A DNA stretch of 29,993 bases from a virus, in the IMG/VR virus record IMGVR_UViG_3300049596_000081, positions 1 to 29,993 of that record. One strand, written 5' to 3'. Numbering within the stretch: the first letter of the stretch is position 1; each line of letters starts with the position of its first letter. Under the pieces are notes generated by a model. That model ran no database searches. It saw nothing but the letters and a program-made list of their open reading frames with translations, and was not told where the DNA came from. Of the stretch, positions 1 through 29,993 are shown piece by piece. The translations under genes were made by a program, and so were the position numbers.

Positions 1-56
1 GGGACAACCCCACAGGACACATACGATAGCCTTATTAAGGTTACGGACAACGGGCC
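1..56. repeat. Direct repeat of 28626-28681 (56 bp identical)
   Basis: Bases 1-56 equal 28626-28681 exactly, and the copies diverge at base 57 (A versus G). This is the conserved 5' end of the fibre gene, present at both ends of the window. Confidence 0.95.
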
Positions 57-1059
57 ATTAAGCGGTACGGCTAAATACCTATCTGATGGATTGGGTAATG
101 ATTCGGTTCTTGCTTTGTCAAACGCACGGGTAGGTGTGGCAAGCACTTCGCCTCTTGCTCCACTTCACATTGGAAATACAACCATCAATAATGCTGCAAT
201 CGGCAGTTCTTTAGTTCGTCTTTTATCTCGTTCTACTGCAAACGATGTACAAGAGATAGGCTTGGGTGGCGAGGGAAGTATTACAATGTCTGCGATTGGC
301 AACCTTGTAACCGATGGCGGTAATTTTGCAAAAGGGGCGATTTACTTTGCAACGAGAGATGTTACTACGAATACTGCTCCAACCGAGCGTATGCGAATCA
401 CCGCAGCAGGCAACGTAGGCATCGGCACGGATGCGCCTGATACTTTGGTTACTTTGGGTAGTGCGGCTCGTACTGATAACACCGCAGGAATTAAAATCTT
501 TAGAGGTGGCGGCACTGCCTCTTACGCTACTTATGGATTTTCGGGTAACGCAGTTATCAATTCAGTAGGTGGTGACCTTGTTATTCAGCGTGAAAGCTCG
601 GAGCGTGCCCGTTTCACTACCGCAGGTCTTTGCTTTAATGGTGACTTCGCAGCAGCCAACGCCCTTGATGACTACGAAGAAGGCACTTTTACTCCGACTG
701 TTGAAGGAAGCAGCACCGCAGGTACTGCTACTTATTCTTTTCAAGAAGGCAAATACACTAAAATAGGAAGGCAAGTGTCTTGTCAAATAGATTTGGGATA
801 TTCAAGCGGAACGGGAACGGGAAACTTAAGAATCTCAGGACTTCCATTTGCTGATGCTACTTTAGCTAATCCCGCAGTAACCATTGGCTATTTAGACGGA
901 ATCACGTTGACCGCACTTAACTATGCTATGGCTTACATTGCAAGTGCTCAAACAAGAATTGATATTGTTCAAATACCCACAGGCGGTGGTGCTTTAACAA
1001 GCGTTGCATACGATGCCGCAGGTCGCATAATTCTAAACGTAACATACCCAACCGCTTAA
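1..1059 (+). CDS. Tail fibre / receptor-binding-like protein, allele A (5' partial)
   Basis: The reading frame is open from base 1. Position 1 aligns in frame with codon 7 of the second fibre copy (start 28608), so only about six residues are missing and the full protein would be about 358 aa. The first roughly 25 encoded residues are near identical to the second copy. The middle contains a GNVGIGT motif, and a hinge-like stretch NALDDYEEGTFTPTVEG is shared with the second copy, while the sequences between and after these diverge. GNVGIGT-type repeats and EEGTFTPT segments are familiar from phage tail fibres and other virion appendages. The likely role is a trimeric host-contact fibre. The function comes from motif and context, and no receptor can be inferred. 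See the finding on terminal alleles. Confidence 0.7.
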   Translation, partial: GTTPQDTYDSLIKVTDNGPLSGTAKYLSDGLGNDSVLALSNARVGVASTSPLAPLHIGNTTINNAAIGSSLVRLLSRSTANDVQEIGLGGEGSITMSAIGNLVTDGGNFAKGAIYFATRDVTTNTAPTERMRITAAGNVGIGTDAPDTLVTLGSAARTDNTAGIKIFRGGGTASYATYGFSGNAVINSVGGDLVIQRESSERARFTTAGLCFNGDFAAANALDDYEEGTFTPTVEGSSTAGTATYSFQEGKYTKIGRQVSCQIDLGYSSGTGTGNLRISGLPFADATLANPAVTIGYLDGITLTALNYAMAYIASAQTRIDIVQIPTGGGALTSVAYDAAGRIILNVTYPTA

Positions 1060-1071
1060 TAACTAAACAAA

Positions 1072-1329
1072 ATGATTGAAGAAGTAATCTACATCAGCGC
1101 ATTCAACGTCAAATTAGACGGACAAATTGAAGTACGCAAAACCACCGATGTAACCAAAGACGGAGCCGTTATCGCTTCCTCTTATTGGCGCGTGGTGCTT
1201 GCAGTTAACGACCCTGCTGCCGATGAGGTATTGGGAGTTAATGGCTACTACCGCACCCTTGCCAACGATGCTTGGGCAATGATTCCTGCACCTGTTGCAG
1301 AAGTTGTAGCAGAAGGCGAAGAAGCGTAA
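1072..1329 (+). CDS. Small conserved protein following the fibre, allele A
   Basis: This 85-aa protein begins MIEEVIYISAFNVKLDG. I do not recognise a named domain. It is predicted soluble with mixed alpha/beta character and ends in an Ala/Val/Glu-rich tail. A second copy at 29566 is almost identical, differing mainly at scattered positions and in lacking the last four residues (GEEA). It lies 12 bp after the fibre gene in both copies, so it probably works with the fibre, for example as a fibre chaperone or small tail protein. That role is inferred from position only. Confidence 0.75.
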   Translation: MIEEVIYISAFNVKLDGQIEVRKTTDVTKDGAVIASSYWRVVLAVNDPAADEVLGVNGYYRTLANDAWAMIPAPVAEVVAEGEEA

Positions 1330-1357
1330 ATTAGCAGGGAATTAAAACCCCCTACTG

Positions 1358-1492
1358 ATGGAACACCTACAACAACGGCTTGATGCATTAAAGCAGCAAG
1401 AGGCGAATCTAATAATGCAATTAGATGAGGTTCGTGTCTTGGTATCTGCATACGAGAACACCCTAAACAAAGATGACAAAGGAGTCGGCTGA
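1358..1492 (+). CDS. Short coiled-coil protein (44 aa), copy A
   Basis: The ORF encodes a 44-aa, Gln/Leu-rich peptide starting MEHLQQRLDALKQQEANL. Hydrophobics recur in a heptad-like pattern over residues 4-36, so a single coiled-coil helix is likely. Its 3' end overlaps the next ORF by 20 bp in another frame, which suggests translational coupling. The same gene recurs at 29812, with one base change in the overlapping part (A1412 versus C29866). A comparable small coiled-coil peptide often sits before the holin in phages of this group; this is a recollection, not a search result. The function is unknown. Confidence 0.6.
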   Translation: MEHLQQRLDALKQQEANLIMQLDEVRVLVSAYENTLNKDDKGVG

Positions 1493-1539
1493 TAGCGTAA
1501 TCACGTCTTGGTCTTTAACGGGAGCAGGACTTCTCGTAA
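1413..1539. repeat. 127-bp exact repeat of the window's 3' end (29867-29993)
   Basis: Bases 1413-1539 match 29867-29993 without a mismatch, and the base just upstream differs (A1412/C29866). The match runs to the last base of the window. This is the natural circularisation overlap. Confidence 0.95.
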
Positions 1540-1643
1540 GCTACGCCCATCAAATGTTGGGTTTAGCCGTACTTGTAACCTCACTTGCGTACACTCTTTG
1601 GAAGTGGCGAAGGGACTACAAGAAGGACAAAGGTGCTAATTGA
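1473..1643 (+). CDS. Small membrane protein, holin candidate
   Basis: This 56-aa protein has a short polar N-terminus (MTKESADSVITSW), a hydrophobic stretch over about residues 13-43 long enough for one or two short transmembrane segments, and a strongly basic C-terminus (KWRRDYKKDKGAN). That is the usual layout of a small phage holin. It lies four genes upstream of the M15 peptidase and overlaps both its neighbours. Holins share little sequence, so the call rests on topology and position. Which of this and the next membrane protein is the true holin cannot be decided here. Confidence 0.6.
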   Translation: MTKESADSVITSWSLTGAGLLVSYAHQMLGLAVLVTSLAYTLWKWRRDYKKDKGAN

Positions 1644-1824
1644 GCGCATCTTCGGTAATCCGAAGACTACTCTACTTGGGCTGATTATTATCGGCCTTTG
1701 TTTTGTTTTGGTGTTTTACGAGAAAGCAACGCTCACGGAGATGAGTGCATTTATGGTAGGTGCATTTGCACTTATGTTTTTGAAAGACCCAAAAGACGAT
1801 GGCAAAGCAACAGGCGGTAAGTAG
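1633..1824 (+). CDS. Two-helix small membrane protein, holin or antiholin candidate
   Basis: From a GTG start at 1633 this encodes 63 aa. There is no ATG in frame near the start. A TTG at 1585 is possible, but GTG follows an A/G-rich stretch and gives a compact protein overlapping the previous stop by 11 bp. Residues about 12-30 (TTLLGLIIIGLCFVLVFY) and 38-52 (SAFMVGAFALMFL) are hydrophobic, separated by a short charged loop (EKATLTE), and the tail is charged. Two adjacent small membrane proteins before a peptidase fit a holin plus partner arrangement. Confidence 0.6.
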   Translation: MLIERIFGNPKTTLLGLIIIGLCFVLVFYEKATLTEMSAFMVGAFALMFLKDPKDDGKATGGK

Positions 1825-1927
1825 GCATATCAGCAAAAGCAAGAAGCGAGGCAAGCATTCCAAGAGTGCAAGCAGCAATAAGGCGAGCAAGAACTACTCC
1901 AAGCCCTACAAGTCGCAAGGGCGATGA
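1799..1927 (+). CDS. Lys/Ser-rich basic peptide of the lysis cassette (42 aa)
   Basis: The ORF encodes 42 aa with about a dozen lysines, several arginines and many serines, ending KPYKSQGR. It overlaps the preceding gene by 26 bp, and its stop overlaps the peptidase start (ATGA at 1924-1927). No hydrophobic segment is present. Tiny basic peptides of this kind with a similar C-terminus are, from memory, common just before the endolysin in Bacteroidetes phages. They could bind nucleic acid or anionic lipid, but no function is established from this sequence. Confidence 0.6.
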   Translation: MAKQQAVSRHISKSKKRGKHSKSASSNKASKNYSKPYKSQGR

Positions 1928-2349
1928 CCAAGAACTTCACCCTCGCAGAACTGACTGCTACAAAAACAGGGCTTCCTAACGCTTTACCCAAGCACTTGGA
2001 ACCTAACCTCCGTGCGCTTGCAGAAAACGTCTTACAACCCACGAGAGATGCATTAGGTGCGGTGAAAGTAACGAGTGCATACCGCAGCCCTGCGGTGAAT
2101 AGCAAAGTAGGGGGAGCAAAGACCTCGCAGCACGTACAAGGCCAAGCTGCGGACTTGAAATGCGAAGCAGGCAATGATGTTTTATTTTATTGGATTAAGG
2201 ACAATTTAGACTTTGACCAACTCATTTGGGAATTTGGCTCTGATACTGCGCCATCGTGGGTTCACGTTAGTTACTCAAGTAGCAAGAACCGAAAACAAAT
2301 CCTAAAAGCAGTCAAACACAATGGCAAAACTAAATACCTCCTCTTTTGA
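1924..2349 (+). CDS. M15-family peptidase, endolysin
   Basis: This 141-aa protein matches the Peptidase_M15_3 type (D-Ala-D-Ala carboxypeptidase / L-Ala-D-Glu endopeptidase fold) over nearly its whole length. The SAYRSP motif (residues 51-56) precedes the zinc-binding signature SxHxxGxAxD, giving H70 and D77, and a downstream WVHVS gives H114 as the third zinc ligand. It has no signal peptide, so it needs a holin to reach the peptidoglycan. It sits between small membrane proteins and a spanin-like gene, completing a lysis cassette. Its start overlaps the preceding stop. Confidence 0.9.
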   Translation: MTKNFTLAELTATKTGLPNALPKHLEPNLRALAENVLQPTRDALGAVKVTSAYRSPAVNSKVGGAKTSQHVQGQAADLKCEAGNDVLFYWIKDNLDFDQLIWEFGSDTAPSWVHVSYSSSKNRKQILKAVKHNGKTKYLLF

Positions 2350-2768
2350 TGAATGGCTTGACTCCCTTGAAACTAAACCCCAACCGACTTGCAATGTGGC
2401 CAATCCTGCTGACTGCGACTCTTGCGGTAGTTAGCAGTTGCGCTACTGTGAAACCAGTCCTCGAGAGTGTGATTGTAAGGGACACGGTAATTGTCACGCA
2501 GACAAAGTACCTGACCGACACGCTCGAACTGTTCAAGGACACGACAATTTACCAAGACAAGGTACGCCTTCAGCTTCAGTACATAGACCGAAAGGTGTAC
2601 GTTGAGGCTACTTGCTTGCCCGACACGATCAGAGTTACACAAACCAAGATCCTCACGAAGGAGAAGAAGCAGAGGGGATGGACTTTGGAAGGTGCAGCAG
2701 TTACGCTTGGGCTTATCCTTGTCGTTGCGTACTTCATCAAGAAGTGGATAGATAAGCTCGTAGAGTAG
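2349..2768 (+). CDS. Probable unimolecular spanin (lipobox plus C-terminal TM)
   Basis: The ATG overlaps the endolysin stop (TGATG) and encodes 139 aa. A hydrophobic N-terminal segment (about residues 16-30) ends in VSSC, a plausible signal-peptidase-II lipobox with C31 as the lipidated residue. The middle is polar and rich in beta-branched residues. The C-terminus has one clear hydrophobic segment (about residues 115-130, LGLILVVAYF) followed by KKWIDKLVE. An outer-membrane lipoprotein anchor plus an inner-membrane segment in one chain is the architecture of u-spanins such as T1 gp11, which fuse the two membranes in the last step of Gram-negative lysis. An internal ATG at 2394 would also keep the lipobox. 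The call is from architecture and context, not family similarity. Confidence 0.7.
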   Translation: MNGLTPLKLNPNRLAMWPILLTATLAVVSSCATVKPVLESVIVRDTVIVTQTKYLTDTLELFKDTTIYQDKVRLQLQYIDRKVYVEATCLPDTIRVTQTKILTKEKKQRGWTLEGAAVTLGLILVVAYFIKKWIDKLVE

Positions 2769-2955
2769 GTTTATTTGGCTTCTGCTGCACTTAAATACTA
2801 AAATGGTATAAGTGTATGCCTTGAGGTATTTGGACGCGTTAGAACGCAACTTCTTTCTTTTTCTTTGTTAAGTTTCTTTTTCTTTAAGTTGTTTGGTAAA
2901 GTTAAGAGTTGACTTACTCAGCTAATTAGTAAAGTTATAAGTTTACTAAGTAGTT

Positions 2956-2973
2956 AAGTTAACTAATTAACTT
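2956..2973. repeat. Palindrome AAGTTAA-CTAA-TTAACTT
   Basis: The two 7-base arms are perfectly complementary around CTAA. It is too AT-rich and lacks the downstream T-run of a strong intrinsic terminator, so it is more likely a protein-binding site or part of an origin. Confidence 0.6.
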
Positions 2974-2993
2974 TTAGAAAAAACAAAATAAAA

Positions 2994-3023
2994 TTGACAT
3001 AGCAAAGTCTTTATGCTAATTTG
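2994..3023 (+). promoter_or_regulatory. Candidate early promoter
   Basis: TTGACA begins at 2994, and 20 bases after the TTG comes TAATTTG at 3017-3023. This is one base short of the Bacteroidetes -7 consensus TAnnTTTG, with the normal -33/-7 spacing. It lies about 20 bp before the first early gene. Confidence 0.5.
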
Positions 3024-3042
3024 TAATGATTATAAATAATGA

Positions 3043-3345
3043 ATGATCATATTTTCATTTATTGGGATGATGTACCTTTGGCTAATGACACCAAAGTACT
3101 ACATCGGCAAGACGTTGAAGATAGAGGCGAAGGATGTGGTGATGGACTTCCAACCAGATAATTACAATCTTGGAACTGCCCTCACCTACATAATGCGTGC
3201 AGGCAAGAAACCGCACAACCCGATCTGTGACGATATCCGCAAGGCTATCGCACATCTTCAATTTGAACTTGAACGACAGAATGAGCAACGATCAGAAAGC
3301 GAAGGAAGCCAAACAACAACAGGAAAATATGCAGTACTATACTAA
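3043..3345 (+). CDS. DUF3310-like protein (putative nucleotide-kinase-related)
   Basis: The conserved part starts around residue 15 with PKYYIG and runs through DFQPDNYNLGTALTYIMRAGKK to DDIRKAIAHLQFELE. This is the DUF3310 pattern (NLGxALKYIxRAGKK...DLxKAxxYLxxE). DUF3310 occurs in many phages and is often annotated as nucleotide kinase after T7 gp1.7, although catalysis is not proven for most members. The start is uncertain: ATG at 3043 adds a hydrophobic leader, while ATG at 3085 (MTPKYYIG) gives a protein closer to the domain boundary. It is the first early gene after the control region, and its end overlaps the next ORF by 65 bp. Confidence 0.7.
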   Translation: MIIFSFIGMMYLWLMTPKYYIGKTLKIEAKDVVMDFQPDNYNLGTALTYIMRAGKKPHNPICDDIRKAIAHLQFELERQNEQRSESEGSQTTTGKYAVLY

Positions 3346-3529
3346 CCCCGCGAAACGTAGGAAGATTGACTTTATCCTTGAGGAGTGTGCTACGCTGATG
3401 GCTAACTGCGAATCCGATTACAACTCTCGCCAACAGGCGAAGTACAAAGAACAAGAGTTACTCGGTGAGATTGCCAAGATAGACCTGCACTTCGCCATCC
3501 AATGTGGATATCTGATCCCGGACAATTGA
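3281..3529 (+). CDS. Small hypothetical early protein
   Basis: This ORF encodes 82 aa starting MSNDQKAKEAKQQQENMQ. It is charged, probably mostly helical, and contains ECATLMANCESDYNSRQQAKYKEQELL in its centre with no recognisable motif. It overlaps the DUF3310 gene by 65 bp and the RusA-like gene by 28 bp, so it is embedded in a tightly packed early operon. I do not recognise a family. The frame is supported by its fit between two recognised genes. Confidence 0.6.
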   Translation: MSNDQKAKEAKQQQENMQYYTNPAKRRKIDFILEECATLMANCESDYNSRQQAKYKEQELLGEIAKIDLHFAIQCGYLIPDN

Positions 3530-3885
3530 AATCGTACAAGGTGGTTGTTGGCAAAGTGCCGAGTCTAAATGCCTTCTACTCATCTAAGCATTGGACAGTT
3601 CGTGCCAAAGCAAAGACTAAACACTGCGAAGAAGTAACGCTACAGCTTTTACAGTATGACCGCGAGCAGATCACGGATGTGCAAATCCTTTGCAGGGTAA
3701 ATTACCGATACGATATTGACAATGCGATAATGGCGGTGAAGTTTGCGCTTGACGCATTCAAGACTTGGGGTGGCGTAAAGGATGACTCACGTACCTATGT
3801 GCAGTCGCTGAAGATGGTTCACGATACAACAATTGCCAAAGACACGGCAGAAATAACTTTCACAGGTTTGTTGGTAACAGAATAA
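3502..3885 (+). CDS. rusA: RusA-like Holliday junction resolvase
   Basis: The 127-aa product carries the RusA signature. An N-terminal VPSLNAFY strand is followed by RYDIDNAIMAVKFALDAF (D71 and D73) and then GGVKDDSR (D94/D95). These acidic residues correspond to the metal-binding aspartates of the RusA family, which resolves four-way junctions and other branched DNA as a dimer. The length fits the family (about 120 aa). It probably processes replication or recombination intermediates before packaging. The gene ends just upstream of a promoter. Confidence 0.85.
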   Translation: MWISDPGQLKSYKVVVGKVPSLNAFYSSKHWTVRAKAKTKHCEEVTLQLLQYDREQITDVQILCRVNYRYDIDNAIMAVKFALDAFKTWGGVKDDSRTYVQSLKMVHDTTIAKDTAEITFTGLLVTE

Positions 3886-3916
3886 GTTGTATATTTGCAT
3901 AACTTAAAACCAATCA
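3868..3916 (+). promoter_or_regulatory. Promoter with AAAACCAATC leader
   Basis: TTG at 3868-3870 is followed after 19 bases by TATATTTG at 3890-3897, a perfect match to TAnnTTTG. The recurring leader motif AAAACCAATCA lies at 3906-3916, five bases before the ATG at 3921. Confidence 0.75.
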
Positions 3917-3920
3917 GTAT

Positions 3921-4061
3921 ATGACTTTATCATTTTCTCAAGACGTTTACACCGAGATGGTGCAAGTGCAACAAGCACAAATCCAAGCACTACAAAACAA
4001 GATACAAGAGCTTGAAGCTCGTATTGAGGTTTTGCAGCAGCAATCAATTCTATTTATCTAA
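3921..4061 (+). CDS. Small coiled-coil protein (46 aa)
   Basis: The ORF encodes a Gln/Glu-rich peptide (MTLSFSQDVYTEMVQVQQ...) with continuous heptad-like hydrophobics from about residue 13 to 44, consistent with one long coiled-coil helix. It follows a strong promoter-like site and the AAAACCAATC leader. Its TAA overlaps the next copy of that leader, which precedes the SSB-like gene. The function is unknown, perhaps a small oligomerising regulator. The evidence is its placement, its own leader and its compact composition. Confidence 0.6.
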   Translation: MTLSFSQDVYTEMVQVQQAQIQALQNKIQELEARIEVLQQQSILFI

Positions 4062-4069
4062 AACCAATC
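4060..4069 (+). promoter_or_regulatory. AAAACCAATC leader motif
   Basis: This exact copy of the motif ends six bases before the ATG at 4076 and starts at the stop codon of the preceding gene. No separate promoter precedes it, so the motif does not depend on a nearby -7 box. Confidence 0.6.
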
Positions 4070-4075
4070 TATACT

Positions 4076-4513
4076 ATGCCTAAAATTATTTCTATCACCC
4101 CTACCGGCCAATGGCAGGATTTGTACAAACTTGAGGTTCGCTTCGATTCAGGGGATTTCGGTACTGCTTTTGCTAAATCACAGACTCCTCCCTACGCAGT
4201 AGGCGAAGACGTTGAGTATACTAAGAACGAAAAGGGTACAATCAAGATCCAACGTGCAAATGCTTTTGGTGCATCTACAGGTGGAGCTTATACCCCATCA
4301 GCTCCTTCATTTGCCGCTAAGCAAGATGACCGCTCGGCTTCTATCATCCGACAGGTTGCTCTGAAGTCGGCGGTTGAATACGCTTGTGCTGCGCAACACG
4401 ATATAAACACCATTCTTGCCAATGCAGAGACCTTCAATGCTTGGATGACTGGCGCAAGTTCAGCTCCTGCCTCACACACGGAGCATTTCGCAAATCGCAA
4501 CGACCCTTTCTGA
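4076..4513 (+). CDS. Probable single-stranded-DNA-binding protein
   Basis: This 145-aa protein has an N-terminal beta-rich segment (about residues 1-60: ISITPTGQWQDLYKLEVRFDSGDFG... and GEDVEYTKNEKGTIKIQ) consistent with an OB-type fold. A low-complexity Gly/Ser/Ala/Pro linker follows, then a helical segment with RQVALKSAVEYACA, and the tail ends NRNDPF. The last residues resemble the SSB tip (DDIPF) that recruits partner proteins. Similar proteins sit beside helicase or primase genes in Bacteroidetes phages, and the next gene here is a RecA-fold ATPase. The OB fold is inferred by eye, so the SSB function is likely but not certain. Confidence 0.6.
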   Translation: MPKIISITPTGQWQDLYKLEVRFDSGDFGTAFAKSQTPPYAVGEDVEYTKNEKGTIKIQRANAFGASTGGAYTPSAPSFAAKQDDRSASIIRQVALKSAVEYACAAQHDINTILANAETFNAWMTGASSAPASHTEHFANRNDPF

Positions 4514-4540
4514 TTGGTTTTTAAATAGGTCGTCGCGTGA

Positions 4541-4566
4541 AGCCCCTCTACGGAGGGGTTTTTTTA
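4541..4566 (+). terminator. Rho-independent terminator
   Basis: CCCCTC (4543-4548), loop TACG and GAGGGG (4553-4558) form a 6-bp GC-rich hairpin followed by seven Ts (4559-4565). It closes the transcription unit that ends with the SSB-like gene. Confidence 0.85.
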
Positions 4567-4581
4567 TGTCAATTATTTTGC

Positions 4582-4600
4582 TATATTTGTAAAACCAATT
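4582..4600 (+). promoter_or_regulatory. Promoter -7 box with AAAACCAATT leader
   Basis: TATATTTG (4582-4589) is a perfect TAnnTTTG and is followed immediately by AAAACCAATT (4591-4600), 7 bases before the ATG at 4608. The -33 region overlaps the T-run of the preceding terminator and has no clear TTG. Confidence 0.65.
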
Positions 4601-4607
4601 AGAAACA

Positions 4608-5540
4608 ATGATACATCCTGATCTTCTGAGTAACGAATCATCGTTACCATATTTACAACGCGCACTCAAAGGCAAATACTATGACACGGGCAAGCTCGGT
4701 GTTTATGAAGTAGATGAATGGCTGAGGTTAAAAGATGGTGAATTTGTTGTAGTGGTCGGCCACGCCAACGTGGGCAAGACACATACTCTGCTTTACCTTA
4801 TGCTGCTTCAGTCGTATAACTTCGGCAAGAAGTGGTTGATCTACTCCGCAGAGAACGAAGTACCAAGTCTGAAGAGAAAGCTCATTGAGTTCTTGGTGTG
4901 CAAACCTATCCAAGGGATTGACGAGGGGATGATGTTCCGCAAGCTTGACTTCATAAACGAGTACTTTCAATTTGTAGACGGCAACAGGCTATTCACTGCA
5001 TTCGAACTTCTTGAGATAATGAATTCAATTAAAAACGAATGGAATTACACCGGTGCTCTTATTGATCCGTATAACTCTTTATCTACTGATCAAAAGAAAT
5101 TAGGTAAAACAGGAATGCACGAATACCACTACGAGGTAGCCTCAGCGCTTAGGGTATTCGCTCACAAGAATAATGTAACGACAATCGTAAACGCTCACCC
5201 TGTAACAGAGGCGATGCGGAAGACCTTTTACAAAGGACACAAGTACGAAGGGATGGCGATGCCTCCCAATACCTCAGATATTGAAGGAGGCGGTAAGTGG
5301 GGTAATAGATCAGACTGCGTGATCGTTATACATCGTTTTGCCGCGCACGAAACTGATTGGATTTACACGCACATTCACGTTCGTAAGGTTAAAGAGATGG
5401 AAAGTGGCGGCCGCATAACTCCTCTTGAAACTCCCTTAATCTTACAAAGCCTATTAGGTAATGTTGGTTTTATGATAAATGGTCGTAACTTGCTGCCAAT
5501 TAAAACAGATGAAACCCCTGCGACTGATGTACCCTTCTGA
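4608..5540 (+). CDS. RecA/DnaB-fold ATPase (helicase-like)
   Basis: The 310-aa product has Walker A GHANVGKT (residues 51-58), a likely catalytic glutamate in YSAENE (E82), and a Walker B strand GALIDPYN (D153). Further down, VTTIVNAHP and the glycine-rich GGGKWGNRSDCVIVIHR resemble the H3/H4 region of DnaB/Twinkle-type ATPases. There is no N-terminal primase or DnaB-N domain, so it is a bare motor of about 35 kDa. It could be a replicative helicase, a helicase loader or a recombination ATPase. The C-terminus ends TDVPF, an SSB-tip-like tail. It follows its own promoter after a terminator. Confidence 0.75.
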   Translation: MIHPDLLSNESSLPYLQRALKGKYYDTGKLGVYEVDEWLRLKDGEFVVVVGHANVGKTHTLLYLMLLQSYNFGKKWLIYSAENEVPSLKRKLIEFLVCKPIQGIDEGMMFRKLDFINEYFQFVDGNRLFTAFELLEIMNSIKNEWNYTGALIDPYNSLSTDQKKLGKTGMHEYHYEVASALRVFAHKNNVTTIVNAHPVTEAMRKTFYKGHKYEGMAMPPNTSDIEGGGKWGNRSDCVIVIHRFAAHETDWIYTHIHVRKVKEMESGGRITPLETPLILQSLLGNVGFMINGRNLLPIKTDETPATDVPF

Positions 5541-5838: not shown

Positions 5839-6062
5839 AGCAGATTCTATCACCATTTCAGAAGTACGAATGCTTTTCAGTAGATGGGGTGGACTACCTT
5901 GTTACCGATGTTACAATAATCCAAGACAAGGATGACAATTTAGTGGAATGGGCAAGTGAGATGAAGTTTAAAAGACTGAAAGACCACAAGCACTACACTA
6001 TGCCAATCACCAAGATATTAACCAATTATAAAGAGGGCAGGGCTAAACACTGCAAATGCTAA
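5835..6062 (+). CDS. Small hypothetical protein
   Basis: The 75-aa product starts with an ATGA overlap on the previous stop. The sequence is beta-rich and charged (YECFSVDGVDYLVTDVTIIQ) with a basic C-terminus ending in HCKC. No motif is recognised. Tight overlaps on both sides support it as a translated member of the replication operon. Confidence 0.55.
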   Translation: MKQILSPFQKYECFSVDGVDYLVTDVTIIQDKDDNLVEWASEMKFKRLKDHKHYTMPITKILTNYKEGRAKHCKC

Positions 6063-6475
6063 TGAGACCTTTTGAAATACGCCAATTAAAAGTTAGTAAA
6101 GAACAATACTATGCACGTTTGGGGTTCCAAGACAATGGAAGCCGTGCACATAAAGAAAGCACTGCAAGAGCAGCATTTGTATCAGCATTCAGAAACCACG
6201 CAACGCTTCACGAACTTGGTGAGGCCATAGACAAAGACCATAGCAGCGTAGCGTATGCCGTAAGGATGCATAAAGATCGCCTTATCTATGGCGATTATCA
6301 GCATTACTACAAGGTAGCCTGTTGCGTTCTTGAGGAAAACCCGATGGCATGTATTGATAAACCCGACTTTCAATCTTTGGAATTGGAACTAAATAAACTC
6401 AACGAGGTTGTGTGTGAGTTATCTAAGTATAAAGAACTATATTTAACGCTAAAGAAAACATTCGATGAATTTTAA
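6056..6475 (+). CDS. DnaA domain-IV-like DNA-binding protein
   Basis: Residues about 36-78 contain TARAAFVSAFRNHATLHELG followed by EAIDKDHSSVAYAVRMHKDRL. This matches the C-terminal DNA-binding domain of DnaA (helix-turn-helix followed by the GRDHSTV-like signature, here DKDHSSV). The AAA+ domain of DnaA is absent and a coiled-coil-like C-terminus follows (residues about 100-139). Such stand-alone domains could recognise DnaA-box-like sites at a phage origin or act as a repressor. ATG at 6056 or 6062 may be the start. It overlaps both neighbours. Confidence 0.65.
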   Translation: MLMRPFEIRQLKVSKEQYYARLGFQDNGSRAHKESTARAAFVSAFRNHATLHELGEAIDKDHSSVAYAVRMHKDRLIYGDYQHYYKVACCVLEENPMACIDKPDFQSLELELNKLNEVVCELSKYKELYLTLKKTFDEF

Positions 6476-6623
6476 CGTAGGCTTTTATCCCATCTATGGG
6501 CTTATCGTAGGAGCAAATTGGTCAAAGACTGATTACCTTGAAGAGGATATTGTGATGCATACAGTTCAGTTTGCATTGTTTGTGATAATTGTAGAAATTA
6601 CTTGGAACTCCTCTCATTATTAG
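6465..6623 (+). CDS. Small membrane-associated protein (52 aa)
   Basis: The ORF encodes MNFNVGFYPIYGLIVGANWS, then an acidic loop (DYLEEDI) and a hydrophobic segment QFALFVIIVEITW near the C-terminus (about residues 35-47). It overlaps the preceding gene by 11 bp and the sigma-like gene by 22 bp. Short proteins beginning FYPxYG with one C-terminal hydrophobic segment seem familiar from Bacteroidetes phages, but no function is known to me. Confidence 0.6.
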   Translation: MNFNVGFYPIYGLIVGANWSKTDYLEEDIVMHTVQFALFVIIVEITWNSSHY

Positions 6624-7138
6624 CCAAGCGCCAGACCGATTGGATTCGGATGTGCAAGAGCTTTGGTGCAAGCGATGACCTTGCGCAGGAGCTTGTTCAG
6701 GAGATGTATGTCCGGCTTTATAAGTATGTGGCTGATGCTGAGAAGATAATGTACAACGAGACCGATGTCAATACTTTTTTTGTATATGTTACGCTCAGGA
6801 ATATGTATGGGAACTTAATGCGAGCGCGATCTAAATTTGAGTTTGTAGATGTAAACATCCTTGAAGAATATATCTTTGAAGATACGAACGAAGATGCAGA
6901 AATGCAACTCATAGCACTATATGACAAGGTGTGGTCAACACAGGATGATTGGCATTGGTATGACAAAAAGATATTTGCACTATACCACAACACCGACATG
7001 AGCATTCGCACATTAGCTGGCGAAACAAAAATTTCAGCACGTTCCATATTCAACACACTAAAAAATGCAAGAGAGCGAATCCAAGAAGACTGTGAAGACT
7101 CCTACAAAGCGTACAAAGAAGCAAAGCGGCTTGGGTGA
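6602..7138 (+). CDS. Sigma-70-family-like RNA polymerase sigma factor
   Basis: Starting from TTG 6602 (no ATG before the conserved part; the next is at 6649), the product is 178 aa. The N-terminal half has a region-2-like helix pattern (SFGASDDLAQELVQEMYVRLYKY, then TFFVYVTLRNMYGNLMRARS). The C-terminal half has a region-4-like helix-turn-helix (SIRTLAGETKISARSIFNTLKNARERI). The layout and size match ECF-like sigma factors. In a phage this would redirect host RNA polymerase to phage promoters, probably a later class. Sequence similarity to canonical sigma factors is weak by eye, but the order of features is right. Confidence 0.7.
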   Translation: MELLSLLAKRQTDWIRMCKSFGASDDLAQELVQEMYVRLYKYVADAEKIMYNETDVNTFFVYVTLRNMYGNLMRARSKFEFVDVNILEEYIFEDTNEDAEMQLIALYDKVWSTQDDWHWYDKKIFALYHNTDMSIRTLAGETKISARSIFNTLKNARERIQEDCEDSYKAYKEAKRLG

Positions 7139-7469: not shown

Positions 7470-7962
7470 TGAGCGCAGACAGTACTCCAACCAAGTTGGT
7501 GATTTAACTGCAAATAGATTTGTAGAAGCTTGTGAGGCCATAGGCTACTCTTGTGAGAAGTCAGATCGAAACACTGACATCTACGATCACATAGACTATT
7601 TTGTTACACGCCTTAATGGAACAACATCTGTAGACGTAAAAGGAGGTAACCATCCCAATACTATTTGGGTAGAGTTTAAAAATGTAAAAGGTAACAACGG
7701 GTGGATGTATGGCAAAGCCGAGTACATTGCATTTGATATGCCTGAGCTTGGTGGGTTTGTAATGGTGAGAACACAAGAACTTGCACGGCTATGTGAAGAC
7801 ATTGTAGAACCTGTATTTGTGACAAAGCAAGAAGCCACAAGAAAATACTACCAAAGAGAAGGCAGACAAGACATAATAAGCAGACTTGAGTTGCCAGACA
7901 TCCAAAGATTAGTTTCATTTAAAGTTTTAACCTATGCCAATCCCTCAACCCAAAAGTGGTGA
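7459..7962 (+). CDS. Putative PD-(D/E)XK nuclease
   Basis: From ATG 7459 (ATG 7453 is also possible) this encodes 167 aa. An N-terminal helix (residues about 14-28) is followed by HIDYF (D46) and SVDVKGG (D59, K61), giving the D...D-x-K core of PD-(D/E)XK nucleases. A second strand, TIWVEFKNVKGNNGW, is typical of the fold in restriction-like and resolvase-like members. It overlaps the upstream gene by 11 bp and the downstream one by 29 bp. It could act in recombination, DNA degradation or packaging. The specific substrate is not evident. Confidence 0.6.
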   Translation: MVSNERRQYSNQVGDLTANRFVEACEAIGYSCEKSDRNTDIYDHIDYFVTRLNGTTSVDVKGGNHPNTIWVEFKNVKGNNGWMYGKAEYIAFDMPELGGFVMVRTQELARLCEDIVEPVFVTKQEATRKYYQREGRQDIISRLELPDIQRLVSFKVLTYANPSTQKW

Positions 7963-8071
7963 AAAGCAATCCGAATACATCCAACGTTGCTTGGAAGCTA
8001 TCGGAAGCGAATACCAAGATAAAGACCAAGCGGTAGCAATTTGCTACACGCAATGGAAGGAGGACAAGTAG
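7934..8071 (+). CDS. Small conserved phage protein (45 aa)
   Basis: The ORF reads MPIPQPKSGEKQSEYIQRCL, then EAIGSEYQDKDQAVAICYTQW and a charged end. This short module (PxPxxGExxxxFIxRC...Y.D..QAxAICYxQW) is common in phages, often near or within capsid-assembly genes. Here it stands alone in the early region. Its 3' end forms the left arm of a terminator, so the last codons and the hairpin share sequence. The function is unknown. Confidence 0.65.
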   Translation: MPIPQPKSGEKQSEYIQRCLEAIGSEYQDKDQAVAICYTQWKEDK

Positions 8072-8086
8072 TCCTCTTTTTTTTTG
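8060..8086 (+). terminator. Rho-independent terminator
   Basis: GAGGAC (8060-8065), loop AAGTA and GTCCTC (8071-8076) form a 6-bp stem followed by nine Ts (8077-8085). The left arm lies inside the last codons of the preceding gene. Confidence 0.85.
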
Positions 8087-8091
8087 TCGTG

Positions 8092-8145
8092 TTGTTAGTA
8101 ATTAAATAATTTGTTATATATTTGTAGAACATTTAATACCAATCA
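8092..8145 (+). promoter_or_regulatory. Promoter with ACCAATCA leader
   Basis: TTG at 8092-8094 is followed after 22 bases by TATATTTG (8117-8124), a perfect TAnnTTTG. ATACCAATCA (8136-8145), a variant of the leader motif, ends one base before the ATG at 8147. Confidence 0.75.
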
Positions 8146-8146
8146 G

Positions 8147-8239
8147 ATGAAAACACTACTTAAAAACACGGCCTACTTCTGCGCTCTTGCGTTGACGTTT
8201 TGGGCTTATCTATGGACTCTTGAACTTCTTGGAATATGA
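8147..8239 (+). CDS. Tiny membrane protein (30 aa)
   Basis: MKTLLKNTAYFCALALTFWA begins a single hydrophobic helix flanked by lysines on the N side, with a short C-terminus ending LELLGI. It has the strongest promoter/leader arrangement of the window directly upstream, and its TGA overlaps the next ATG (ATGA). It could be an inner-membrane peptide, for example for superinfection exclusion. That is a guess from topology. Confidence 0.55.
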   Translation: MKTLLKNTAYFCALALTFWAYLWTLELLGI

Positions 8240-11089: not shown

Positions 11090-11283
11090 CTGACATCACC
11101 AAATGCAGCGGAACTGACTGCCCACTAAAAGAATCCTGCTATCGTTACACCGCACCAACGGGGATGTATCAATCTTTTTTTGTTGGCGTACCTATCAAGA
11201 ACGGTCAATGCGAATACTATTGGGGTGAAGCCTCACAATCAACATACGAGCAATTAAAAGAAATCTTTAAAACCAACGAGTAA
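11086..11283 (+). CDS. Small four-cysteine protein
   Basis: The 65-aa product starts MTDITKCSGTDCPLKESCYR and contains Cys at 7, 12, 18 and 42, the last in GQCEYYW. The spacing suggests a small metal-binding or disulphide-stabilised fold. This pattern (KCSGxxCPLKxxCYR...P) seems familiar as a common small protein of Bacteroidetes phages, of unknown function. The ATG overlaps the exonuclease stop (ATGA). Confidence 0.65.
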   Translation: MTDITKCSGTDCPLKESCYRYTAPTGMYQSFFVGVPIKNGQCEYYWGEASQSTYEQLKEIFKTNE

Positions 11284-11405
11284 TGCGAGACCAATTCATG
11301 AGGATAGCTATGGCGCAGCTCCGTAGCACCTACCCCTTCAAGCCCCAACGCAGAGCAATAGCTGCTCGGATGTGGGTAAAGTACTTAGAGCGTAAGAATG
11401 GATAG
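11283..11405 (+). CDS. Small basic protein (40 aa)
   Basis: MRDQFMRIAMAQLRSTYPFK starts a 40-aa Arg-rich peptide ending WVKYLERKNG. Its ATG follows the previous stop directly (the stop and start share the A at 11283), and its stop overlaps the first glycosyltransferase. It is probably helical. No function is recognised. The tight stop/start overlaps are the main support. Confidence 0.5.
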   Translation: MRDQFMRIAMAQLRSTYPFKPQRRAIAARMWVKYLERKNG

Positions 11406-12336
11406 ACCATTCGTTCTCGCGTTCCACAAGCAGAACTCGGGTGTTTCACACCATAGGACATTTGCCCCTTTGATATGTCACAAAGGAGTAGATGTCTTTT
11501 TCATTGAGAAAATAACCGACATTGACCCTGAGATATGGCCTAAGGTTACTCACGTCTTTACCTCAAGGGTTTTCCCCGTTGAGCCGTTTGATGACTTTGT
11601 AAAGCTCTGCCGAAAGGAAGGCATTAAGTTAATTGTTGACAATGACGATTGGTGGGTGCTGCCTCCGACCCATCCTTTGCTTGGTGTCTATTCTGATCAG
11701 ATGAAGATGAAGATTATTCGCTCTATGAAAGCAGCGGATGAGGTATGGGTGACTAACAAACACCTTGCCTCAAAGGTCAAGAAGTACAATACCAACATCC
11801 GAATCATCCCCAATGCAATCAGCGTAGCTACGTGGCAGGTAGAACGTAAACCAAGCGATGAAGTGCGCTTCGGGTATATAGGGGGCAACCACCACTTAAT
11901 AGACGTAAGGGAGTCTACAATCAATCTTGAAGGCTATCAAGGGTATGTTGCGGAGGTAGATGGCTACCCAGATATTATGAGGGCAAGCCATAGGCTTCCT
12001 ACGATGCCACCAACACACTACCATAAACTCTACGAGTTCTTTGACGTTAGCCTCGTACCGCTTACGACATCCGAGTTCGCCAAGTGCAAGTCGCACCTAA
12101 AGATGCTTGAGGCAGGCTTTAGCAAATGTGCTTTGATAGTAAGCAACACGCAACCCTATTCACCCTATATCACCAAAGAGAACTGCATTGCTATCAAGCA
12201 CCCAAGCGAATGGGCAGGTGCAATCAAGAGGCTAAAAGAAAACCCAAATCAAGTGGCTGATATAACAGAATCGTTATACGAGTATGTGCAGGACTTCACG
12301 ATGGATAAGATAAACGAACTACGATGCTTTACATAG
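11398..12336 (+). CDS. GT-B-type glycosyltransferase
   Basis: The 312-aa product has the outline of a GT4-like glycosyltransferase. It has an N-terminal Rossmann half (FVLAFHKQNSGVSHHRTFAP ... VTHVFTSRVFP ... LIVDNDDWW), then AADEVWVTNKHLASKVKKY and IRIIPNAIS at the domain junction. The C-terminal half has VRFGYIGGNHH and SHLKMLEAGFSKCALIVSN, corresponding to the nucleotide-sugar-binding helix region. It would transfer a sugar from an activated donor. The acceptor could be a virion protein, phage DNA or a host surface glycan. It begins a three-gene cassette. Confidence 0.7.
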   Translation: MDRPFVLAFHKQNSGVSHHRTFAPLICHKGVDVFFIEKITDIDPEIWPKVTHVFTSRVFPVEPFDDFVKLCRKEGIKLIVDNDDWWVLPPTHPLLGVYSDQMKMKIIRSMKAADEVWVTNKHLASKVKKYNTNIRIIPNAISVATWQVERKPSDEVRFGYIGGNHHLIDVRESTINLEGYQGYVAEVDGYPDIMRASHRLPTMPPTHYHKLYEFFDVSLVPLTTSEFAKCKSHLKMLEAGFSKCALIVSNTQPYSPYITKENCIAIKHPSEWAGAIKRLKENPNQVADITESLYEYVQDFTMDKINELRCFT

Positions 12337-16820: not shown

Positions 16821-18050
16821 ATGAGTACACCTGTATTTTCCACACCGAGCAGCCTTGCTATGGCAAGAAGCCCACAATTTATTACGGCAAAGAATAACGC
16901 TCTTGCGCTTGACACGCTCACAGAGATGGACTTAAACCTCCGCATTCGTACGGGGGTGCTTGCTGCATCGGGTTCGTTTAACTACTCGTTGAGCAAAGAC
17001 TATTCAATAAACCAAGTCATCAACTTTGAAATCAGCGACCTAGTTCGCTCGGAGTTTTACCATGACTTCAGCGTATGGAATGACATAGGCTACACGCAAA
17101 GCCCACAGGGTGAGGCGTTGTGGATAGTACCCGAAGGCTCTGTGACATTCTCTAATAACGGAGCAGCATCCGCCAACGCAATCTTCCCCGATGAATCAGA
17201 CACCGCGTACGCATATCTAACTACCGATGGATGGGCAACCCGTGATAACATCGCCCCTGTTGCGGTATCTCAACCCGTGCTTGCAACAAGCAGAGACAGG
17301 CAGGTACTTGTAGGCAACTATGAATCCCTTGCGATTAACAATAGCGTAAATAATGGGCTTGCTTATATTGTCATCAGTTGGCAGAGTGGTGATTCCGATG
17401 ATTTTTATGTGAGTGCCGTAAGCACCGCACCGCCAACACGCGCAACCAACAACTCACAAAACCTTGTGATTTACGCAGGCGTTGGCCCTGCAAACCTTGA
17501 GAACAATTCTTTTTTACCTTCCGAGATAAAGCCAAGCGCACAACCCGATGGGGGCGTAGGGCAGTACTACGATGTGATTCTAAAGAATGCATCAAATACC
17601 ACGATTGGAACGGTGAGGTACTATGTTCAATGTGAGGCAAAGTACACGCCTGTGCAGGTGGCGTTCATCAATCGCTTTGGCGTTGCTGACTTCATCACGT
17701 TCTTCAAGCGCAGCGATGAGCGTGGTAACTTCACGCAGGACTCCTACCAAAAGAGCATCTACAACGATGGCTTCACCACCCCTTCATTGGAGATAGGCAA
17801 GTACCAATCCTTCAACGTGAACTCTCGCAACACCCTAACTCTAAACACAGGGTTCGTTGACCAAGACTACGATGAGACTATTGAGGACATTCTGATGAGC
17901 GAGTATGTTGCGGTATATACCAATAGCAACTGGGTAAGCGTTGTTCCGAATCGTGGAAGCATAGAGTACCAAAAAAGCATAAACACAAAGCTTATCAATT
18001 ATACAATGTCCTTTGACTTCGGATTTGATGAGCGCAGTTTGGTACGATGA
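16821..18050 (+). CDS. Tail structural protein (unknown)
   Basis: The 409-aa product is beta-rich, with many Ser, Asn and Thr and few charged helices. It opens MSTPVFSTPSSLAMARSPQF and includes LRIRTGVLAASGSFNYSLSK and the repeated aromatic-turn pattern of virion beta-domains. No catalytic motif is seen. Position between a connector-like gene and the 714-aa protein, with a 4-bp stop/start overlap to the latter, points to a tail-tip or baseplate component. Confidence 0.55.
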   Translation: MSTPVFSTPSSLAMARSPQFITAKNNALALDTLTEMDLNLRIRTGVLAASGSFNYSLSKDYSINQVINFEISDLVRSEFYHDFSVWNDIGYTQSPQGEALWIVPEGSVTFSNNGAASANAIFPDESDTAYAYLTTDGWATRDNIAPVAVSQPVLATSRDRQVLVGNYESLAINNSVNNGLAYIVISWQSGDSDDFYVSAVSTAPPTRATNNSQNLVIYAGVGPANLENNSFLPSEIKPSAQPDGGVGQYYDVILKNASNTTIGTVRYYVQCEAKYTPVQVAFINRFGVADFITFFKRSDERGNFTQDSYQKSIYNDGFTTPSLEIGKYQSFNVNSRNTLTLNTGFVDQDYDETIEDILMSEYVAVYTNSNWVSVVPNRGSIEYQKSINTKLINYTMSFDFGFDERSLVR

Positions 18051-29546: not shown

Positions 29547-29565
29547 TAAATAAACAACAAACAAA

Positions 29566-29811
29566 ATGATTGAAGAAGTAATCTACATCAGCGCATTTAA
29601 CGTCAAATTAGACGGAACCATTGAAGTCCGCAAAACCACAGACGTTACCAAAGACGGAGCCGTAATCGCTTCATCTTATTGGCGCACCGTGCTTGCAGTT
29701 AACGACCCTGCTGCCGATGAGGTATTGGGAGTTGATGGCTACTACCGCACCCTTGCCAACGATGCTTGGGCAATGATTCCTGCACCCGTTGCAGAAGTTG
29801 TAGCCGAGTAA
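29566..29811 (+). CDS. Small conserved protein following the fibre, allele B
   Basis: The 81-aa product is the counterpart of 1072-1329, beginning MIEEVIYISAFNVKLDGTIE. It lacks the four C-terminal residues, and its stop overlaps the next gene's region directly, whereas copy A has a 28-bp spacer. Synonymous and a few nonsynonymous differences show that the copies are diverged alleles, not a recent identical duplication. Confidence 0.75.
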   Translation: MIEEVIYISAFNVKLDGTIEVRKTTDVTKDGAVIASSYWRTVLAVNDPAADEVLGVDGYYRTLANDAWAMIPAPVAEVVAE

Positions 29812-29946
29812 ATGGAACACCTACAACAACGGCTTGATGCATTAAAGCAGCAAGAGGCGAATCTACTAATGCAATTAGATGAGGTTCGTGTCTTGGTATC
29901 TGCATACGAGAACACCCTAAACAAAGATGACAAAGGAGTCGGCTGA
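29812..29946 (+). CDS. Short coiled-coil protein, copy B
   Basis: This 44-aa ORF is the counterpart of 1358-1492, with a single base difference at 29866 (C for A). That change replaces residue I19 of copy A with leucine. It begins directly after the stop of the preceding gene. Confidence 0.6.
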   Translation: MEHLQQRLDALKQQEANLLMQLDEVRVLVSAYENTLNKDDKGVG

Positions 29947-29993
29947 TAGCGTAATCACGTCTTGGTCTTTAACGGGAGCAGGACTTCTCGTAA
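29867..29993. repeat. 127-bp exact repeat of 1413-1539, window end
   Basis: Identical to 1413-1539 to the last base. Joining the two copies gives a closed unit of 28,454 bp (1413-29866). Confidence 0.95.
29927..29993 (+). CDS. Small membrane protein, holin candidate (3' truncated copy)
   Basis: The first 22 codons are identical to 1473-1643. The gene is cut by the window end and would continue as the copy at 1473 if the ends are joined. Confidence 0.55.
   Translation, partial: MTKESADSVITSWSLTGAGLLV

Follow-up and report, generated by a model that had tools for sequence, protein, structure and literature searches.

The locus described here lies in a stretch of 29,993 nucleotides (hereafter the window) that makes up the whole of an IMG/VR record of an uncultured Bacteroidota phage. 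A gap of 274 bases (2769-3042) separates a gene at 2346-2768, itself downstream of an M15 endolysin gene, from the early genes, which are encoded on the + strand. The early block opens with a small ORF of 40 amino acids (MNDHIFIYWDDVPLAND..., 3039-3161) that is probably the first early gene; its start is kept in relatives, the differences among them look synonymous by eye, and on its account the noncoding part of the gap stops at 3038. This ORF overlaps, in another frame, a DUF3310-like gene (3043-3345, likely start 3085), which matches PHROG 236 at E 9.1e-11 and the Pfam family at E 0.006, below the cut-off. Further downstream are a phage DnaB-type helicase gene (4608-5540; PHROG 18375 DNA primase/helicase, E 1.6e-35; PHROG 19 DnaB-like, E 9.9e-12; a weak match to Pfam DnaB_C at E 0.0068, below the cut-off) and an ORF (6056-6475) for a small protein related to the DNA-binding domain of DnaA. 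A DNA polymerase gene was not found among the 20 window proteins scanned with PHROGs. The last residues are NDPF in the product of the ORF between the DUF3310-like and helicase genes (4076-4513) and TDVPF in the helicase; both ends resemble the acidic C-terminal tip of SSB proteins, and the product of ORF 4076-4513 may be a phage SSB.

The gap at 2769-3042 has a GC content of 0.27, the lowest among the gaps listed. A preliminary description of this DNA had placed a candidate origin here on the strength of six AAGTT copies in 91 bp, an exact 13-bp pyrimidine repeat and a palindrome with 7-bp arms, and all three of these elements are indeed present. AAGTT occurs at 2870, 2886, 2899, 2932, 2939 and 2956 (2870-2960), a count equalled in none of 1000 dinucleotide shuffles of the 274-bp gap; six copies of any 5-mer appeared in two of 1000 such shuffles, and elsewhere in the window AAGTT reaches at most two copies per 120-bp stretch. 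When both strands are counted, 5-mer repetition in the window core is not unusual (z 1.3). The pyrimidine repeat TTTCTTTTTCTTT is found at 2854 and 2873 only, and the palindrome is formed by AAGTTAA (2956-2962) and TTAACTT (2967-2973). The same description called this the only long noncoding region, which is not exact: 7963-8235 (273 bases) and 3886-4075 (190 bases) are also without + strand ORFs of at least 60 amino acids, both containing shorter ones (fewer than 60). Its choice of AAGTT as the repeat unit has given way to a longer element, a 20-bp site repeated at a distance of 33 bp.

Relatives were assembled along several routes. A query with the helicase ORF (4608-5537) returned 300 relatives, and the best 80 of these 300 were kept; 15 of the 80 loci were left out for want of both flanks, and the resulting 66 intergenic regions, window included, were reduced to 59 distinct ones by removal of identical sequences. 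Viral contigs were also scanned for the 33-bp-spaced pair itself, with at least 120 stretches found and 80 loci among those listed, 65 of them new. All but two of the new loci (63/65) are members of the window's phage group; the two set aside are L133, which looks like a chance match, and L157, which looks like an unrelated prophage operator. Genome contigs scanned with the phage exonuclease gave 38 pattern stretches, with no relatives among them. Searches found no near match for the phage among 50,697 phage records, no DNA matches in cultured phages and plasmids, and no Rfam matches in the window. At the protein level the terminase is nearest to those of a faecal phage and Parabacteroides phages (about 42%), and the portal to its counterpart in Nonlabens phage P12024S, at 41.5% across 70% of the query; the gene order of P12024S looks similar to that of the window.

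The repeat unit can be written T.AA.TT...AGTTGAYTAA, and the window copies, both on the + strand, occupy 2897-2916 and 2930-2949, so that their starts are 33 bp apart; the second copy carries an AGTTTAC variant. A third element is the dyad AAGTTAA-CTAA-TTAACTT at 2956-2973. The 33-bp pair is kept in 59 of the 59 distinct homologous intergenic regions of the helicase-seeded set, in 55 by the pattern and in four (the window, L002, L003 and L025) with an altered copy at the same distance, which was confirmed separately for the window. In site 2, bases not covered by the search word (T at -10, AA at -8/-7, TT at -5/-4 and A at +8) show no variation among the 55. The two window copies are the only matches on either strand, with the site pair absent outside the array; among 13 genomes, the 20-bp pattern has exactly two matches, both within the array, in 11, one match each in G010 and G014, and none on the opposite strand of any. 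Its AGTTGAYTAA half is found twice, in the array only, in 11 of the 13 genomes; G014 has a single copy and the window none. Among 70 main-clade cores the word [GC]TTGA recurs chiefly at spacings of 33 (direct), 22 (convergent) and 11 (divergent), a distribution to be read with the proviso that part of the loci were retrieved by the 33-bp pattern itself; smaller peaks, at 26, 7, 35 and 4, fall outside an 11-bp phase.

Dyad structure is frequent among the array cores. Of 99 distinct cores, 64 fold better than their own shuffles (z < -2) against 8 of 75 control windows, although the sequences are related rather than independent. The A-tract served to find these 99 cores, which therefore provide no independent count of it, and P12024S (L213), in which no A-tract was found, was left out of the core counts. 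The array is not alone in folding strongly, as a hairpin at 7963-8072 in the window reaches z -4.2.

Around the sites lie further elements, all on the + strand, of which the pyrimidine tract, the A-tract and the promoter-like element make up the frame. At the end of the lysis block is an imperfect hairpin, GGTATA-AGTG-TATGCC (2805-2820), to which stems in other members, e.g. GGTATAG-TT-CTATACC, are related. It is followed by the hairpin GCGTT-AG-AACGC (2836-2847), placed ahead of a T-rich stretch and present as GCGTT-n1-4-AACGC in 45 of 59 distinct intergenic regions; this second hairpin is a possible terminator of the lysis/structural transcript, and a terminator scan of 2300-3600 returned no terminators. 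The pyrimidine tract (2854-2885), made up of the two exact TTTCTTTTTCTTT copies at 2854-2866 and 2873-2885, is a candidate unwinding element. It is found in 52 of 59 main-clade intergenic regions and 22 of 29 sister-clade cores, and is missing from seven of each set. Downstream of the sites, an A-rich tract (AAAAAACAAAATAAAA, 2978-2993) has a counterpart in all 59 intergenic regions, and a putative promoter-like element, TTGACA ... TAATTTG (2994-3023), precedes the early genes, with a TTGACAT-like element in 56 of 59. A promoter consensus scan did not flag 2994-3023 and gave three matches in total against 2.1 expected from shuffles. In all 13 genomes that hold the region, the 150 bp of lowest stability in the genome overlap the array, a count from which G004, G008 and G015, which are without it, are excluded.

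The DnaA-like protein of L261, which is 49% identical to that of the window, gave access to a sister clade. A low-stability gap is kept about 1.7-2.2 kb upstream of the helicase gene in the sister clade, and the repeated words differ, being ACTTGA in 23 of 29 cores and AGTTGA in 16 of 29; most members keep the frame while the array words change. One array core is common to L040 (main clade) and L305 (sister clade), whose DnaA-like proteins are 49% identical. The changing words, the fixed frame and this common core together indicate that the array behaves like an exchangeable cassette. A GGTGACGTCAACG-type hairpin replaces the pyrimidine tract in some cassettes, and L324 carries both. The loci with this alternative cassette are L040, L305, L307, L308, L324, L332 and L340, in which a hairpin of the type ACCATTTTGGTGACGTCAACGAAATGGT stands instead of the tract (in L324, beside it). 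In the arrays of L300, L302, L304 and L309, a hairpin with 8-bp arms, ATATACCT-TC-AGGTATAT, lies inside the site cluster.

The protein encoded at 6056-6475, whose gene starts 3.1 kb downstream of the intergenic array and shares a gene block with the helicase gene and the array locus, is the candidate binder of the sites. The preliminary description had likened it to DnaA domain IV, and the fold is borne out by its relatives and its model. Every one of 30 aligned DnaA-like relatives matches Bac_DnaA_C at E 0.01 or better (best E 7.9e-7), the window protein itself reaching E 0.0019, below the gathering score, while a profile of the family has, at E <= 0.1, a single match to PDB sequences, a weak one (0.045) to the DnaA chain 1j1v. 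In the AlphaFold model (mean pLDDT 90.3), residues 9-97 align with two DnaA DNA-binding domains, 3pvp (Z 10.3) and 1j1v (Z 10.1). Behind these come four further replication initiators (Z 8.8 to 7.8), among which 2hcb and 3r8f are titled DnaA and 1l8q and 8btg are DnaA as well, and the first unrelated structure appears at Z 6.2. Foldseek likewise places 3pvp at the top (probability 1.00, E 0.045), with no PDB match reaching E 0.001. Since such Z values are middling for helical proteins, it is the sequence signal and the order of the structure rows that carry the case that the predicted structure is a DnaA domain IV fold. AAA+ domain III was not found, as the 139 amino acids leave no room for it and the remainder is mainly one helix (105-138); lacking this domain, the protein is not a DnaA.

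The long C-terminal helix ends in KELYLTLKKTFDEF. Across 44 complete DnaA-like genes that neighbour a helicase gene, all 44 encode [RK]DH[ST] together with the tail KELYL[TN]LKKTFDEF, the ends being exact in 38, extended by two residues in five and altered by a T to N change in one. Part of this tail, TLKKTFDE, had been the seed of an earlier search; the counts given here come from a repeat seeded with the helicase, which still finds the tail in 44 of 44 and so removes the doubt that it was an artefact of the seed. The input was 52 of 80 loci, those nearest the sister-clade query; of the other eight, three gave no match (524 bases or less of downstream DNA), three were cut short and two did not count as complete genes. 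The 44 include at least one gene (L371) that is on a contig with a main-clade DnaA-like type. Since the tail is constant and the DNA-binding half varies more, the tail may serve to contact a protein partner that is itself constant, for which the phage helicase would be the natural candidate.

We put at about 0.5 the probability that 2854-2993 is an iteron-type origin beside the early promoter, at which the DnaA-IV protein binds and recruits the helicase. Supporting this reading are the structure of the sites, their conservation and uniqueness, the low stability of the DNA, the DnaA-IV fold, and the co-occurrence of the array with the helicase/DnaA-IV block. We infer from them a sequence of events that would begin with the DnaA-IV protein binding the two 20-bp sites side by side, and probably the third dyad too. 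The complex would then open the adjoining low-stability pyrimidine- and A-rich DNA, helped by early-gene transcription from this place; the C-terminal tail would recruit the helicase (ORF 4608-5540) and, with replication thus started at the array, a host polymerase would copy the circular genome. A broader proposal, which we advance tentatively and at less than even odds, is that the motor-less DnaA-IV protein serves as an initiator-adaptor for an abundant group of uncultured phages: its N-terminal half would read the spaced sites, its near-invariant tail would hand over the phage hexameric helicase, and the array would be a swappable cassette within the frame of pyrimidine tract and A-tract.

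Several lines of analysis bear on the origin reading, and they do not all favour it. What stands of the candidate origin first described is a conserved, unique and AT-rich repeat locus; GC skew and DnaA boxes lend it no support. The detrended GC skew minimum falls at 18-21 kb in five of five genomes rather than at 2.9 kb, a position confounded by the placement of nearly all larger genes on one strand, and at four-fold sites the minima are inconsistent, scattering over 1.3, 28.8, 25.7, 13.1 and 28.5 kb, and only two of the five genomes show a range larger than permutation gives. Raw cumulative skew minima (at 3-5207) were not used, as the net skew is positive and the circle was opened there; nor were keto skew maxima, found at 2.9 kb in G002, 1.8 kb in G010 and 1.6 kb in G012 but at 6.9 kb in G001 and 11.8 kb in the window. 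The strict DnaA box TTATNCACA is absent from the window, the looser TTWTNCACA occurring at 16836 and 21437 only, and the arrays show no box enrichment, equalled as they are by 499 (main clade) and 773 (sister clade) of 1000 permuted boxes; a likeness of TTATCAACT to TTATCCACA was dropped for the same lack of enrichment. Array similarity over 54 loci does not single out one protein. Spearman coefficients are 0.62 for the DnaA-like protein, 0.66 for the helicase, 0.65 for DUF3310, 0.63 for ORF 4076, 0.61 for ORF 2346, 0.58 for ORF 5479 and 0.41 for the RusA-like protein, so that the DnaA-like protein does no better than its neighbours, and in 50 of 1431 pairs near-identical DnaA-like proteins accompany very different arrays.

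The main alternative, possible if somewhat doubtful, is that the sites form an operator array through which a phage regulator, possibly the DnaA-IV protein itself, switches the promoter at 2994-3023, replication starting elsewhere. The array does lie directly upstream of both the TTGACAT-like element (56/59) and the first early gene, spaced dyads suit cooperative regulators, and array cassettes are exchanged between phages. However, three of the 59 intergenic regions (L011, L014 and L029) retain the array without the TTGACAT-like element, an observation that speaks against a mere operator; none of the 13 genomes tested has the 20-bp site at a second location, neither an integrase nor a repressor was found among the 20 window proteins scanned, and a regulator leaves unexplained why the array falls in the least stable DNA of each genome. 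The two functions could also be joined in one control region of the lambda type, with the DnaA-IV protein in addition repressing its own operon. The arrangement of sites, A-tract, promoter-like element and a co-directional block with the helicase and DnaA-IV genes agrees with such a combination, which we nevertheless regard as rather unlikely, the promoter at 2994-3023 being only putative.

The records of relatives do not all open at the same point of the map, and in four of them the ends overlap briefly, a picture that fits permuted or circular genomes; these openings could also be taken to favour a packaging (pac) site, which, together with a target of the sigma-like protein described below, is a highly improbable reading of the array. 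In G009 and G010 the terminase and sigma-like genes have been replaced (terL 67% and 64%, terS not detected, sigma-like 36%, ORF 7065 49%), yet both 33-bp-spaced sites remain, alongside a retained helicase (96%), DnaA-like protein (89% and 88%) and exonuclease (95% and 94%). The persistence of the array despite these replacements argues against both a packaging site and a sigma-like target. Functionless, low-complexity filler is more improbable still: it would accord with AT-rich DNA in which short repeated words differ between clades, but not with a fixed 33-bp spacing, with bases beyond the search word that are the same in all 55 regions, or with a frame kept in most sister-clade members.

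Taken as an origin, the locus invites comparison with known systems. The lambda origin (ori-lambda, with its O iterons), as described in PMC7466680, has several repeats to which the initiator binds, an AT-rich tract next to them, transcription through the origin and replication genes close by. The mechanism proposed for the window array would work in a similar way, and the array is like ori-lambda in its repeats, AT-rich tract, presumed transcription and nearby phage replication genes. The iterons of ori-lambda lie inside the initiator gene, whereas the window array lies between genes, some 3 kb (about 3) ahead of the gene for the putative initiator; because its sites are not in the initiator gene, the array is not of the lambda-origin family. 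The candidate initiator is also different, being DnaA-IV-like, as are the site sequence and the 33-bp spacing. Bacterial oriC and DnaA share with the window the domain IV fold of the candidate binder and low-stability DNA next to a site array, but differ in that the window protein has 139 amino acids, without room for AAA+, and the arrays are without DnaA-box enrichment. Iteron plasmid origins, e.g. of the RSF1010 type, combine iterons, an AT-rich stretch and a hexameric helicase, and use a different initiator.

Proteins named for the DnaA C-terminal domain are common in phages, and among the Foldseek matches listed 19 of 50 carry this name. One, the stand-alone I6RTB7 of Nonlabens phage P12024L, has the same domain as the window protein (Foldseek probability 1.00) with just 14% identity (E 8.9e-3). 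Its likely counterpart in P12024S, paired with it by length, is gp17 (11277-11738) of the early block. In P12024S, which is almost equal in size to P12024L and is the nearest cultured relative by portal, the two early gaps examined contained no array of this kind. In the openly licensed literature searched we found nothing on the function of motor-less phage DnaA C-terminal-domain proteins and no DnaA-domain-IV phage protein acting at an iteron array. The window locus pairs one such protein with a defined candidate binding array. If the initiator reading is true, this would be a natural system in which the reading of sites and the opening of strands, both tasks of DnaA, are separated.

Other features of the window merit description in their own right. 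An ORF at 6602-7138 resembles ECF-type sigma factors (TIGR02937, E 1.2e-7, below its cut-off) and is a possible late-gene sigma factor; the version in G009 and G010 is 36% identical to it. Farther along, a small ORF (MPIPQPKSGEKQSEYIQRCLEAIGSEYQDKDQAVAICYTQWKEDK, 7934-8071) lies just ahead of an intrinsic-terminator-like sequence, GAGGAC-AAGTA-GTCCTC (8060-8085), which is followed by nine T and, at 8117-8124, by a TATATTTG box, both recognized by eye; the stretch 8060-8124 could end the early operon and start another. Finally, a stretch common to positions 1065-1539 and 29559-29993, near the two ends of the window, is 88% identical between its copies and seemingly single in relatives such as G001, so that the record may be a closed circle in which two strain versions of the stretch meet, or a tail-fibre block may have been duplicated.
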